In this document: positions 6,085 to 11,988 of the stretch, piece after piece | How positions within the stretch are numbered: position 1 is the first letter of the stretch | Layout: each line of letters begins with the position of its first letter | From: a virus | Direction: 5' to 3' (one strand) | Virus record (IMG/VR): IMGVR_UViG_3300049218_000085 | Location: 1 to 21,336 of that record | Length of the DNA: 21,336 nt | Program-made: the position numbers and the translations under genes | Notes under the pieces: model-generated | Database searches by the model: none | The model's input: the letters and a program-made list of their open reading frames with translations, nothing else | Told to the model about the DNA's origin: nothing

Positions 6085-7524
<1,440 letters not shown>

Positions 7525-8019: not shown

Positions 8020-8292
8020 ATGAAATTGCTCGATGACCTTTTGATCGTCCTACCGGACGAACCGAACCTGGCACGGCGCATCGTTTTGCCGAAGTGGTCG
8101 AAGGGCCTCGAAGGGAAAATTCTCGCCGCCGGGCCGGGCTTGTTGCTCAGCAACGGGTCTCGCGTCCCTATGGAAGTTGAAGTCGGCGACCGGGTTTGCT
8201 TCGGCGCGGCGACGGGAATGGAGTCTGTTTTCAAGGGCCAGTCAATCCGCATCATGCGACAGACTGATCTGCTCGGAGTGATCGAAGCATGA
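8020..8292 (+). CDS. GroES-like co-chaperonin (90 aa)
   Basis: The ATG at 8020 has GAGGA four bases upstream. The sequence follows the Cpn10 fold throughout. It has an N-terminal LLDDLLIVLPDEP strand in place of the usual LxDRVxV, then IVLPKWSKGLEGKILAAGPG, the conserved RVPMEVEVGDRVCFG, and the ending IRIMRQTDLLGVIEA, which matches the GroES C-terminus (…IMRExDILGVIE). The length is close to the usual ~95 residues. The mobile-loop region is short and its GroEL-contact tripeptide appears to be IVL. Phage co-chaperonins (T4 gp31 type) replace host GroES to fold large or awkward coat proteins. The gene overlaps a second GroES-like gene by ATGA. Confidence 0.85.
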   Translation: MKLLDDLLIVLPDEPNLARRIVLPKWSKGLEGKILAAGPGLLLSNGSRVPMEVEVGDRVCFGAATGMESVFKGQSIRIMRQTDLLGVIEA

Positions 8293-8762
8293 GCCACATT
8301 TACCCGGCGAGCTACGGCGATCCGAGAGATTGGAAGGTGCTGCGCGACCGAGTGATCGTGCAGCGACTCGAATACAAGCACCCTATTCTGGCCGTGGTCG
8401 GCGTCACCCTGCAAAAAGGTCGCGTAATCAGTGTCGGTTACGGGCGCCGTAAACGCCGTCTGGTGCGTTTTGAGAAAATGCCGGGCATGAGTGCCGGCGC
8501 ACTGTACTTCGAGGACGGTGAAGAAACTGGCGAGCTTACGCCGATGAAAGTAGCGGTCGGGGACATTGTAGAGTTCTCGCCGCGCGACCAGTTCGAGTTC
8601 AATTACGGCGGCCAGGACTATATCGTCATCAAGCAAAATGCGATCTACGGCACGCACAACGACGCAAAAGACGACGAGGCCCTGCTATGGCAGCAGTCCG
8701 CCGGCTTTGACCGAGACGGCCACTTTCTTAGCGGGAAGGAAAACTGGCAACATGTCGGATGA
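8289..8762 (+). CDS. Second, extended GroES-like protein (157 aa)
   Basis: The start overlaps the upstream GroES-like stop as ATGA. Residues 15-125 fit a Cpn10-type barrel: WKVLRDRVIVQRLEYKHPIL, a mobile-loop-like segment with VVGVTL, QKGRVISVGYG, KVAVGDIVEFSPRDQ, and DYIVIKQNAIYG at the position of the GroES C-terminal strand. A ~30-residue insertion (RRKRRLVRFEKMPGMSAGAL and following) and a ~40-residue C-terminal extension make it longer than GroES. It probably co-assembles with, or specialises, the first copy. It overlaps the start of the terminase small subunit by 11 bases. Confidence 0.72.
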   Translation: MSHIYPASYGDPRDWKVLRDRVIVQRLEYKHPILAVVGVTLQKGRVISVGYGRRKRRLVRFEKMPGMSAGALYFEDGEETGELTPMKVAVGDIVEFSPRDQFEFNYGGQDYIVIKQNAIYGTHNDAKDDEALLWQQSAGFDRDGHFLSGKENWQHVG

Positions 8763-9816
8763 ACCGACAGCGAAGAAGCGCGGCCGGCCGAAACTTGTCC
8801 GACCTGTTCAAAATTACGAGCTAATCGACCCCGCCACTATCGCCCCATTGCGCGACGGCATCCCGGACCTGTATAATTATGTACCTTCACGTTTTGTTTC
8901 AGAAGATGAAGCGAATTTTCGTGGCTGGCCTCTTTTCTACGATGGTCGAAAGTGCCGCTATCAACATCAAGCCGCGCGTTACGCTTCAAATCCGAACCAA
9001 TGCACCGATTGCCACCGCCTCAAGCGGGGCAAAGAGCCCGTTTACGGTAAGACCGGCGGCGAGCCCGAGTACAAGCAACGTCCGTATAAGCAGCGCGCTC
9101 CAGCTGATCCCGTGGGAACACTCCCGGCGGTAAAGCCGCTGGAGCCAAACGCTTCTGAGAAGGAATTTCTCGTCGCTTACGCGGAGACGAAAGACTTCCT
9201 CGCCGCGTGCGACCGGGCGAAGTTTAAGCAGGCGCAAATTCACATGCGCCTCTCGGTCTCGAAGGTTTTCAAAGACGCTTGCAACGATCTTGAGACGCGG
9301 CTCGGCATCAAGCAAACGATTCCGTTCGCGGGCGAGTTCGACTGGGACGAAGATAAGAGAACGCGATTGCTCACCGTCTACATCGACACAGGCGATATCG
9401 CCGCCGCGCGCGACTCCATCGGCTGCACGGCGACGCAGTTCTATAAAGAACTCGAAGCCAACGGAGATTTTCAATTGAAGTTGGACGCGGCAAAGCCGCT
9501 GGCCGACAACGCTCTCGAAGAACGCGCGGTTCAGTTCGCGCTCGCCGGCAACGATAAATTGCTGGCCAAGATTCTCTCGGCGAAAAAGCCCGAGTATCGG
9601 GAGCGGATGCAAATGGACCTCAACTTAACTGAGAAGCTCACCGATGACCAGCTCAACAAGCGACTCGCTCAGCTCGTCGCCAGCGCCAAACGACGCGGCG
9701 ACACAACTGTCATCGACGCTATCTTCTCTGAGCCGCCAAGAGAAATTGGCACTGTTGGAAACCCTGGCGGAACGCGAGAAACGACAGAGCCGGAACAGAA
9801 TTGCGACCTACTTTAA
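8752..9816 (+). CDS. terS: Putative terminase small subunit with N-terminal Cys/His motif (354 aa)
   Basis: The start at 8752 has AAGGA upstream. The N-terminus is basic (KKRGRPKL, AT-hook-like). Residues ~65-100 hold a C-x3-H … C-x2-C-H pattern (CRYQHQAARYASNPNQCTDC, then HR) that looks like a small zinc-binding or HNH-associated motif. From about residue 130 the protein is helical with two HTH-like repeats (FLAACDRAKFKQAQIHMRLS and IAAARDSIGCTATQFYKELE), as in DNA-binding terminase small subunits. Position directly before terL supports the call. The last 173 bases overlap the N-terminus of terL in another frame, an unusually long overlap, so part of the C-terminus may be non-conserved. Confidence 0.7.
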   Translation: MSDEPTAKKRGRPKLVRPVQNYELIDPATIAPLRDGIPDLYNYVPSRFVSEDEANFRGWPLFYDGRKCRYQHQAARYASNPNQCTDCHRLKRGKEPVYGKTGGEPEYKQRPYKQRAPADPVGTLPAVKPLEPNASEKEFLVAYAETKDFLAACDRAKFKQAQIHMRLSVSKVFKDACNDLETRLGIKQTIPFAGEFDWDEDKRTRLLTVYIDTGDIAAARDSIGCTATQFYKELEANGDFQLKLDAAKPLADNALEERAVQFALAGNDKLLAKILSAKKPEYRERMQMDLNLTEKLTDDQLNKRLAQLVASAKRRGDTTVIDAIFSEPPREIGTVGNPGGTRETTEPEQNCDLL

Positions 9817-11260
9817 CACGCCGGAAGTCCGCGCGAGTTACCCGAAGCAGATGCAATTTTTCGGATATGGTGCTATACACAACGAGCGGCTACTCGCGGG
9901 GGGCAACAGGTGCCTTACACCATGGACGGTGATCCCCACGGGTCACGGTGAGCGCCAAGTTTGCGAAGTTCTCGACGCGGAAGCGTTCGATGTTCAGGCT
10001 TGGGACGGTGAGACTCTACGAAGTAGGCGATCCGGGAACGTATTTCTAAAGGGCATCGAGCCAGCGTTTCGGATTCATCTGGACAACGGCGAAGTTTTTG
10101 AGTGCTCCCGTAAGCACCGGGTATTGATGCCCGAAGGCCAGTACCATAGTTTCGAGCGGATAATGTCGCGGCCAAGTGTGCTCCATTTGTCGCGTACACT
10201 TCAAGGTTGGAAGGCCAATTGTGCCTCGGGTGATCGTCCTTATGATCGACCACTTCTTGAGGTTCAAGGTAGCGACCTAACTCTACCTCGCAAACTACGC
10301 GGTGCTCCCAGCAGCGCCCAGAGTGATTTGCGTGCGGGTGCAGCGGCATCCAAATTTGCACGTAACCGTGTTTGTCGACCGTTCGACCGCCGCGCCATTG
10401 AGGATGCCCCAAGCCAGCTTTCGGCCCTGAACGGCATTTCAGAATGGGCAGCCCCAGTTGCGCCGCGTAGCGCCTTACCGAAGTTTCCGGCAGCGCAGTT
10501 CGTCGGCAAATCTCCTGAATATATAGCCCGTCTGATAGCAGACTGGCAATTTGAGATTTTGCAATTGCTGGATCAGTGCGAGTCTGTTTACCTAGCATGT
10601 TCTCCGATCCTTTTGCATGGCGGGAACAGCATTGTAGCAGTGGCGGAGATAGGGCCGCAACCGATAGTAGATTTTGAGGTTCCCGGTTTCCATAACTACA
10701 TGGCGGCGGGGGTCGTCCATCACAATAGCGGCAAGAGCGTAGCTGGCTGTTACGAGGACACGCTCCACCTGACCGGGCAATACCCGGATTGGTGGCCGGG
10801 TAAACGATTCGATCATCCGGTGGACGCTTGGATCGCAGGCGACACGGCAAAAACAGTCCGCGACATTTTGCAGACGATGCTCTGCGGGCCGTGGGGCGAC
10901 AAGTCAATGCTCGGCACCGGGATGATTCCCGGCGACTTGATTCTGAACACCACCGTAAAGCACGGCCTCTCCGATGCGTTCGAGGCGGTATTCGTGAAGC
11001 ATGCGCCGACCGGCGGCACGTCGATGTTGCAGTTCAAAAGCTATGATCAGGGTCGCACGTCGTATCAAGGTACGTCGCAGCACTTGATCCACCTGGACGA
11101 AGAACCGCCGCTCGACATTTACACCGAATGCCTGTTACGCACGATGACGGTTGACGGGATTATTTCGCTGACGGCGACCCCGCTTAGCGGGCTCACCGAT
11201 CTGCTCATCCAGTTCTTGCCGGAAATGGCGCCCGCGCCCGAAGTGGCGCAACCGACATGA
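9644..11260 (+). CDS. terL: Terminase large subunit, ATPase part, carrying an intein in the Walker A motif
   Basis: The 538-residue precursor is an N-extein (1-89), an intein (90-361) and a C-extein (362-538). Joined exteins recreate the packaging-ATPase P-loop AGGNR-SGKS. Walker B is LIHLDEEPP and the coupling motif is SLTATPLSG. CYEDTLHLTGQYPDWWPGKR and LQFKSYDQGRTSYQGTSQ are typical of phage TerL of the Terminase_6 type. The 266-residue spliced product ends just after the ATPase domain (FLPEMAPAPEVAQPT). The nuclease domain is in the next ORF, whose ATG overlaps this stop as ATGA. The start at 9644 gives the usual N-terminal helix (ALLETLAEREKRQSRNRIAT) but lies 173 bases inside terS. Function requires intein removal because the P-loop is interrupted. 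Confidence 0.88.
   Translation: MTSSTSDSLSSSPAPNDAATQLSSTLSSLSRQEKLALLETLAEREKRQSRNRIATYFNTPEVRASYPKQMQFFGYGAIHNERLLAGGNRCLTPWTVIPTGHGERQVCEVLDAEAFDVQAWDGETLRSRRSGNVFLKGIEPAFRIHLDNGEVFECSRKHRVLMPEGQYHSFERIMSRPSVLHLSRTLQGWKANCASGDRPYDRPLLEVQGSDLTLPRKLRGAPSSAQSDLRAGAAASKFARNRVCRPFDRRAIEDAPSQLSALNGISEWAAPVAPRSALPKFPAAQFVGKSPEYIARLIADWQFEILQLLDQCESVYLACSPILLHGGNSIVAVAEIGPQPIVDFEVPGFHNYMAAGVVHHNSGKSVAGCYEDTLHLTGQYPDWWPGKRFDHPVDAWIAGDTAKTVRDILQTMLCGPWGDKSMLGTGMIPGDLILNTTVKHGLSDAFEAVFVKHAPTGGTSMLQFKSYDQGRTSYQGTSQHLIHLDEEPPLDIYTECLLRTMTVDGIISLTATPLSGLTDLLIQFLPEMAPAPEVAQPT
9911..10726 (+). mobile_element. Intein (272 aa) in TerL Walker A, without an in-frame endonuclease
   Basis: The intein starts at Cys1 (codon 9911-9913) after AGGNR and ends in His271-Asn272 (10721-10726) before Ser of SGKS, the class 1 splice-junction pattern (Cys1, His-Asn, +1 Ser). 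Block A is CLTPWTVIPTGHGERQVCEV. Block B is NGEVFECSRKHRVLM with His69. Block F is PIVDFEVPGFHNYMAAG with Asp254 and His261, and block G is VVHHN. Residues ~78-240 show neither LAGLIDADG nor HNH motifs in this frame, only low-plausibility sequence. On the opposite strand that stretch encodes an HNH endonuclease. The element is thus a mini-intein-like splicing domain interrupted by an antisense homing gene. Confidence 0.93.
9915..10598 (-). CDS. HTH-HNH homing-endonuclease-like protein encoded antisense within the intein
   Basis: The minus-strand ATG at 10598-10596 is preceded by AAAAGGATCGGAGAAC, a good ribosome binding site, and the stop TAA is at 9917-9915. The 227-residue product has an N-terminal HTH (residues ~14-50, DGLYIQEICRRTALPETSVR). 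Then comes the HNH module: HPQWRGGRTVDKHGYVQIWM, WEHRVV (residues 97-102), VVDHKDDHPRHNWPSNLEVY (residues 116-135, catalytic-type His and Asn residues) and NGAHLAATL. This is the usual arrangement of phage HNH homing nucleases. The core (about 10598-10158) fills the gap between intein blocks B and F. The remaining C-terminal tail runs antisense to block A/B and is probably constrained by it. A weak promoter candidate, TTGCGG-18-TACAAT (10660-10631, minus), also lies inside the intein. The frame extends upstream to 10907, but the ATG at 10598 is the supported start. Confidence 0.87.
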   Translation of the reverse strand: MLGKQTRTDPAIAKSQIASLLSDGLYIQEICRRTALPETSVRRYAAQLGLPILKCRSGPKAGLGHPQWRGGRTVDKHGYVQIWMPLHPHANHSGRCWEHRVVCEVELGRYLEPQEVVDHKDDHPRHNWPSNLEVYATNGAHLAATLSARNYGTGLRASIPGAYGSTQKLRRCPDESETLARCPLEIRSRIAYFVESHRPKPEHRTLPRRELRKLGAHRDPWGSPSMV

Positions 11261-11988
11261 GTAAGATTGCGTTGTTCGTGTCTTGGGAAGATGTTCCGCA
11301 CTTAACGAAGGAACAGAAAGCCTCGATTCTCGCGAGTATTCCGCCGTGGCAACGAGATAGCCGCACGCGTGGAGTTCCTCAGCTTGGTGCCGGCGCTATT
11401 TACCAAGTCGCGGAAAGTGAAGTCGTCGTGCAGCCATTTCCGATACCGGATTTTTGGCCGCGCTGCTTCGCGCTCGACGTGGGGTGGAATCGAACCGCGG
11501 CTATATGGCTGGCGAAGAACCCTGACACCAATCAGGTTTTTGCATACAACGAATACTATCGCGGCCAGGCCGAACCTAGCGTTCATGCCGCGGCGATTAA
11601 GGCCCGCGGGCATTGGATTCCAGGCGTCATTGACCCCGCTGCGCGCGGCCGAAGCCAGATCGACGGCAAAAAGCTGTTCGATATGTACATGGACCTGGGC
11701 CTGGAATTGACGAAAGCCGACAACTCCCGCGAGGCCGGCATCTACCAAGTATGGGAGTTGCTTTCGCAAGGCCAGTTGAAAATTTTCTCGACGTGCGTGA
11801 ATACGCTGAGCGAATACCGCCTTTACAGGCGTGACGAGAAAGGCAACATCGTGAAGAAAAACGACCACTTAATGGATGCTTTGCGATACGGAGTTATGAG
11901 CGGGCTCGCGCTGGCCGTACCTATGCCGTTTAACGCCGCTGGCGGTAAATGGTTTCACTGGTCTCCGCCGAAGGTATGGGCAGGTTAA
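11257..11988 (+). CDS. terL: Terminase large subunit, nuclease part (separate ORF)
   Basis: The ATG at 11257 overlaps the stop of the ATPase ORF (ATGA). No clear ribosome binding site is present, so reinitiation is likely. The 243 residues begin MSKIALFVSWEDVPHLTKEQ, the segment that follows the ATPase domain in intact TerL proteins. The RNase H-like nuclease follows, with acidic residues in FALDVGWN, GVIDPAARGRS and KKNDHLMDALRYGVMSG. This part cuts concatemeric DNA during packaging. ATPase (266 aa after splicing) and nuclease (243 aa) sum to about 510 residues, the normal length of a single TerL. The split therefore lies at the natural domain border, with nothing missing. Confidence 0.85.
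   Translation: MSKIALFVSWEDVPHLTKEQKASILASIPPWQRDSRTRGVPQLGAGAIYQVAESEVVVQPFPIPDFWPRCFALDVGWNRTAAIWLAKNPDTNQVFAYNEYYRGQAEPSVHAAAIKARGHWIPGVIDPAARGRSQIDGKKLFDMYMDLGLELTKADNSREAGIYQVWELLSQGQLKIFSTCVNTLSEYRLYRRDEKGNIVKKNDHLMDALRYGVMSGLALAVPMPFNAAGGKWFHWSPPKVWAG

Follow-up and report, generated by a model that had tools for sequence, protein, structure and literature searches.

A putative mobile mini-intein in the Walker A loop of a phage terminase, with an HTH-HNH nuclease gene on its opposite strand

A 21.3 kb stretch of viral DNA (21,336 nucleotides; hereafter, the window) was found to contain what we interpret, at a probability of roughly 0.83, as a mobile mini-intein in the Walker A loop of the terminase large subunit (TerL) that carries an antisense HTH-HNH homing nuclease gene, an architecture that is apparently undescribed. 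The linker of this intein, which in canonical mobile inteins is the site of an in-frame endonuclease, carries a complete HTH-HNH gene on the opposite strand. It is also highly probable that the element belongs to a widespread class of mobile inteins that are bicoding, with the splicing element on one strand, the homing endonuclease on the other, and the nuclease partly overprinted on the splicing blocks. Since the two-strand arrangement recurs in about ninety distinct copies in diverse phage sequences, it seems to represent a class of mobile inteins not described before, and not a curiosity.

The interrupted terminase gene and its intein

The window is a fragment of a tailed-phage genome, in which terminase, portal, major capsid, and head-closure genes were identified by Pfam and PHROG. 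The ORF of the TerL ATPase (9644-11260, + strand) is interrupted by the intein, which splits Walker A between GGNR and SGKS (GGNR^SGKS). The + strand features of this locus are:

9644..9910, + strand: TerL N-extein, the N-terminal ATPase part through Walker A GGNR, in a single ORF with the intein and C-extein
9911..10726, + strand: intein of 272 aa, Cys1 to His271-Asn272 with +1 Ser; C1, H69, D254, H271, and N272 invariant, with support from fold and profiles
9911..10195, + strand: N-terminal splicing half (blocks A, N2, and B; residues 1-95); confident HINT fold, AlphaFold pLDDT 90-97 over residues 1-90
10115..10117, + strand: block B histidine, His69, invariant in alignments A3 and A5
10205..10393, + strand: linker between blocks B and F (residues 99-161), predicted to be disordered, AlphaFold pLDDT 31-39
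10481..10726, + strand: C-terminal splicing half (residues 191-272) with Asp254, His261, His271, and Asn272; pLDDT 89-96, blocks F and G conserved
10727..11260, + strand: TerL C-extein, the ATPase core from SGKS onward; Terminase_6N E = 4e-11, PHROG 31467 E = 2e-58
11257..11988, + strand: TerL nuclease domain in its own ORF, with an ATGA overlap; Terminase_6C E = 1e-9, PHROG 5653

The insertion is in frame and at a conserved host site, as expected of an intein: the Walker A region of the intein-less TerL relatives reads as an uninterrupted GGNR-[ST]GK, and the contiguous site was found in 123 loci; intein-less terL alleles are common. The nuclease ORF (11257-11988) is host context and lies outside of the mobile unit. 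In relatives (L004-L047 and others), terL likewise consists of separate ATPase and nuclease ORFs, which lie about 5-80 nt and sometimes 445-1582 nt apart; since the split was found both with and without the intein, it is unrelated to the intein and was rejected as its cause. Elsewhere in the window were noted (i) a tandem repeat at 264-660 (12 copies of a 33-bp unit), which is open on both strands and resembles AxYERVxxxAWDEYERV on the minus strand; (ii) a phage-encoded glycosyl hydrolase family 5 (cellulase) protein at 6085-7524 with a long Pro-Ala repeat linker; and (iii) an adjacent pair of ORFs at 8020-8292 and 8289-8762 that both match the chaperonin Cpn10 (GroES-like).

The residues typical of class 1 inteins (N-terminal Cys/Ser, block B His, block F Asp/His, His-Asn, and the +1 residue) were all identified in the + frame of the window, as Cys1, His69, Asp254, His261, His271-Asn272, and Ser+1. 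The AlphaFold model of the intein displayed a HINT fold that was matched by Foldseek to the DnaB, DnaE, and RecA mini-inteins (E down to 2e-7), and comparison of profiles related the intein family to the solved DnaB inteins (1mi8, E = 2.5e-11). The window intein matched Pfam PF14890 (Intein_splicing) weakly and below the cut-off (E = 0.002; 18.3 bits, cut-off 35.8), the cut-off being an aid to recognition and no biological criterion. Matches to this profile at E < 1e-4 were detected in 34 of 55 relatives (best 5e-15), and the profile is therefore weak for this branch of inteins, not absent. Based on its complete catalytic residues and fold, the window intein is predicted to splice and thereby restore TerL. 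No endonuclease was matched in its sense frame by Pfam or PHROG, and in the linker that frame is open yet poorly conserved, with an identity of 36% compared with 57% for the HNH protein in the same pairs. The canonical bifunctional intein, which has an in-frame endonuclease between its blocks B and F, was thus rejected; in the family, the HNH is solely antisense.

The antisense HTH-HNH gene

On the minus strand, the following features were identified:

9915..10598, - strand: HTH-HNH gene of 227 aa, nested wholly inside the intein, ATG at 10598-10596 and TAA at 9917-9915 (Pfam, PHROG)
10602..10612, - strand: Shine-Dalgarno-like AAGGA / GGAG upstream of the ATG and within the intein, detected by anti-SD pairing
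10458..10571, - strand: N-terminal helix-turn-helix (residues 10-47); AlphaFold helices 10-22, 27-34, and 38-47, weak Pfam HTH match
10155..10403, - strand: HNH core (residues 66-148); HNH_3 over residues 99-134, invariant columns, pLDDT about 93-98 over residues 71-140
9918..10151, - strand: C-terminal extension (residues 150-227), antisense to blocks A-B and dual-coded; flat codon-position substitutions, pLDDT mostly >90

The stop codon of this gene falls in codons 2-3 of the intein. The first-pass annotation of this DNA had described a complete intein at 9911-10726 with blocks from Cys1 to the +1 Ser, no endonuclease in the intein frame, and a minus-strand HTH-HNH gene at 9915-10598 that has a ribosome binding site, ends at intein codons 2-3, and lies together with that site inside the intein limits. 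All of these coordinates and residues were confirmed, and the lack of an in-frame endonuclease was found to extend to the plus frame of the homologues.

The HNH protein of the window matched Pfam HNH_3 (E = 2.4e-6; 27.5 bits versus a cut-off of 24.8) and PHROG HNH endonuclease 20891 (E = 6e-21), and the residues His99, His119, Asn127, and Asn131 were invariant in the family alignment; it has, therefore, both the profile match and the motif residues of an HNH endonuclease. The probable roles of these four residues are assigned through their likeness to HNH enzymes. The AlphaFold model (mean pLDDT 87) comprises the HTH, the HNH core, and a helical C-terminal part that is antisense to blocks A-B. 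When this model was used to query Foldseek, no significant match was obtained, and the best matches were to HTH only with none to HNH. Homing endonucleases like I-HmuI pair their HNH motif with an HTH that binds DNA, and the window protein shares both, with no solved homologue of its HNH core detected by sequence in the PDB. The HNH identification rests on the Pfam and PHROG profiles together with the four invariant residues; a homing function of the protein is probable. A scan of the window for a sigma-70-like promoter of the antisense gene found none.

Recurrence of the arrangement and selection on both strands

Searches with TerL, the intein, and the HNH were used to collect related loci. 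The TerL search of viral contigs provided 80 loci with a complete intein in four (L002, L003, L011, and L013), and the antisense HNH was detected in exactly these four; the remainder were without HNH, including one locus with a truncated intein (L043). Related TerL genes with and without the insert were thus both found, and among them the HNH and intein either co-occur or are both missing; the architecture is fixed. Dozens more loci were identified by the intein-profile search, with essentially all of the full-length members carrying the antisense HNH and none an in-frame HNH. An independent HNH-profile search led to the same arrangement, as 77 of the best 80 of 454 viral relatives are antisense inside one intein-extein ORF; the exceptions are one contig that is truncated and the loci L220 and L234, where a search around the HNH detected no intein. 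Homologues, therefore, keep the minus-strand HNH frame and match HNH profiles without a plus-frame endonuclease, and not the reverse pattern (a conserved in-frame endonuclease opposite an unconserved minus-strand frame) by which the first-pass annotation proposed to judge its own reading.

The family sample consisted of 161 loci, or 91 after dereplication, most of which are uncultured viral contigs. Members from cultured phages include the Pectobacterium/Dickeya phages (Ymer, L248; and Setonix) and Pseudoalteromonas phage PHS3 (L252), and seven more Pectobacterium/Dickeya phage records encode an HNH that is 94-100% identical to that of Ymer. The insertion sites are mainly GNR^[STC]GK but also GNxxGK^[ST], a few codons further, and the identifiable host proteins are almost all terminase large subunits of the Terminase_6 or Terminase_3 type; the host gene of one locus (L239) matches an unknown family only. 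A plasmid search provided short partial HNH matches only, and no match was obtained in two single-protein scans of bacterial genome contigs, a type of scan that detects close relatives only. The family also reveals overlooked genes in deposited phage genomes. For PHS3 (KX912252.1, 1044-3167, minus strand), the deposited TerL start is inside the intein, while the true ORF spans the whole intein, and the HNH is annotated opposite this ORF. For Ymer, the HNH has no annotated gene and TerL is labelled hypothetical.

The geometry of the two genes was found to be nearly constant. The antisense phase is identical in all 91 elements, with the HNH wobble base opposite the second codon position of the intein; the HNH start codon is ATG in 87 of 91; and this start is 122-131 nt from the 3′ end of the intein in 73 of 91. 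Anti-SD pairing upstream of the HNH start averaged -5.8 kcal/mol over the 91 elements compared with -1.7 kcal/mol at random intein positions (p ~ 2e-26). Synonymous resampling of the HNH codons was expected to generate 491 stops in the intein frame of these elements, and 0 were seen; likewise, the codon pairings capable of producing such stops do not occur, as in the example of Phe followed by an A-starting codon (0 of 302 cases, though 23% of codons start with A). Because a locus entered the element list only if a single ORF held both halves of the intein, the reverse case was checked: wherever the two halves were detected opposite an HNH gene, they shared one ORF (157 loci), with 0 of 157 broken. 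By comparison, the free-standing HNH relatives have 1-17 stops in the equivalent frame. For the window alone with the HNH protein held fixed, the open intein frame has p ~ 0.05, so the single case is suggestive and the claim rests on the family; over the 91 non-redundant elements, the open intein frame is beyond chance.

Substitutions were counted at sense codon positions 1/2/3 in 26 disjoint pairs. In the linker, the counts (1147/2075/942) peaked at the HNH wobble position (p ~ 1e-114; 25 of 26 pairs). The non-overlapped N and C zones of the intein displayed the intein wobble signature; in the C-terminal zone outside of the HNH gene, the counts were 280/221/511 (p ~ 6e-31). Where blocks A-B overlap the HNH C-terminus, the distribution was about flat (247/251/287) with neither wobble free, the pattern expected if both products are constrained, and this overlap is true dual coding. 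The signal of selection is thus present in both frames by the disjoint pairs as well as by the resampled stops, and in about 90 distinct elements the two frames both remain intact and experience purifying selection. The view of the first-pass annotation, that the same DNA specifies a splicing linker when read from one strand and an endonuclease when read from the other, is right for the HNH core, and understates the dual coding of the C-terminal ~80 residues of the HNH protein, which overlap the conserved blocks A-B with both frames constrained.

In the tree of HNH cores, the window grouped within a 40-member clade (support 100/99), all members of which reside in inteins. A single origin is likely but not proven, because the deeper order is poorly resolved and the free-standing relatives are placed near the base. 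Of the 91 elements, about 40 have an HNH gene that extends to within ~25 nt of the 5′ end of the intein, or beyond, and in most others it stops 80-290 nt inside the intein. The simplest reading is that the HNH was inserted antisense into the linker of a mini-intein and then extended by overprinting the splicing blocks; those elements with an HNH C-terminus grown over blocks A-B are truly bicoding there. Related nuclease-free mini-inteins of about 127-144 aa were also observed (L153, 2618-3013; L157, 1256-1687; L162, 3920-4300; L166, 2809-3207; L167, 4001-4399), which are possible ancestors, or derivatives without the HNH.

Proposed homing cycle, known systems, and rival explanations

We suggest that (i) the intein is translated with TerL from the terL mRNA and splices itself out to restore TerL, as its catalytic residues and fold would allow; (ii) a separate HNH enzyme is produced from an antisense transcript, in keeping with the codon-level selection and Shine-Dalgarno sequence; (iii) in mixed infections, this enzyme may cleave intein-less terL close to its Walker A codons; and (iv) repair of the cut terL would copy the whole intein and HNH unit. 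Fusion of an endonuclease into the splicing protein is what defines mobile inteins. In the present element, the two functions are on opposite strands of the same DNA, and therefore the nuclease would be a free protein and the splicing linker a by-product of its reverse complement. If true, separate nuclease and splicing proteins that are hard to mutate independently could slow the loss of the endonuclease relative to in-frame inteins. The elements present a case of antisense overprinting maintained by selection on both strands across great sequence divergence, a natural test of how overlapping genes affect the gain, loss, and fixation steps of the homing cycle, and a source of new splicing elements and of HNH nucleases likely aimed at the terminase Walker A codons.

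The first-pass annotation considered this architecture nonstandard, and the open-access literature, the scope of our search, provided no precedent for an endonuclease antisense within an intein. Dassa et al. (2009) reportedly described fractured genes, in which split inteins have a free-standing endonuclease cistron in the intein locus; the separate cistron would be shared with the window, but in that case the host gene and intein are in two genes compared with one ORF here. The DnaB, DnaE, and RecA mini-inteins (PDB 1mi8, 4o1r, 6frg, and 4kl5) share the HINT fold and class 1 catalytic residues, while the window element differs by an extra insertion of ~95 residues with the HNH core on the other strand. 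The mycobacteriophage TerL inteins TerL1-a/b are in the Walker A P-loop, are spliced, and are in some cases endonuclease-active (PMC5050341). These have the host protein and P-loop region in common with the window intein; however, their activity is tied to their own endonuclease domain, with no mention of antisense or overlapping endonucleases (PMC5050341), whereas the window HNH is antisense. Homing endonuclease genes antisense within a self-splicing element are known from group I introns, as for Dsq.L2066, where they are expressed from their own transcript (PMC9548176), but these are His-Cys family enzymes of RNA introns in the rDNA of the eukaryotic nucleus (PMC9548176), and with an RNA intron as host, there is no requirement for the opposite strand to code for protein. 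The ShiLan domain is a hidden out-of-frame HNH in a phage methylase that likewise overlaps a host-gene frame kept stop-free; it differs in being on the same strand, in the third frame, and without a splicing domain, and the host protein bears a loop (PMC11855218). The HNH of Mycobacterium phage ShiLan (L258) is a distant relative of the family, with 41% identity over 78 aa to the Ymer member.

Among the rival explanations, an unlikely one is that the HNH is its own homing element that targets the linker of HNH-less inteins, with the intein a safe harbour that is moved passively or secondarily. The existence of HNH-less mini-inteins (L153, L157, L162, and L166/L167) and of free-standing HNH relatives (L220, L234, and in cultured phages) is consistent with this idea, but the single phase of all 91 elements, the near-constant start, and the joint presence or absence of HNH and intein among TerL relatives argue against it; these features fit a single fusion in the distant past, with intein and HNH moving jointly ever since. 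Considerably less probable is a role of the HNH in DNA packaging with TerL, its location in an intein being incidental. HK97-type phages do encode HNH proteins beside their terminases, and the identifiable hosts here are nearly all TerL proteins, yet many close TerL relatives are without both intein and HNH, the HNH gene is antisense to terL and thus not co-transcribed with it, and its location is inside the intein in 77 of 80 cases (best 80 of 454 relatives). Slightly less probable again is that the plus-strand intein is decayed and non-splicing and only the HNH is functional, as a ShiLan-type domain in a tolerated TerL loop. The predicted disorder of the linker would suit this reading; counter to it are the invariant catalytic residues, the signature of intein wobble in those N and C zones that the HNH gene does not overlap, and the insertion in Walker A, where ATPase activity should be lost if the insert stayed unspliced.

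A chance antisense ORF over a real intein would be favoured by GC-rich DNA, and many other long antisense ORFs are indeed present in the window; nonetheless, this possibility is negligible in view of the HNH profile matches, codon-position selection, Shine-Dalgarno sequence, and conserved start, as well as the occurrence of family elements down to 37% GC, and it was ruled out by the stop (491 versus 0; 0 of 157 broken), codon-position, and SD tests. Three known arrangements were also rejected. For a group I intron with an antisense homing endonuclease gene, Rfam gave no match across 9400-11400 (E <= 1). A ShiLan-type hidden HNH was ruled out by the location of the HNH on the opposite strand and by the complete splicing domain, and a split intein or fractured gene by the N- and C-inteins sharing one ORF in the window and in 157 of 157 HNH loci where the two halves were detected.
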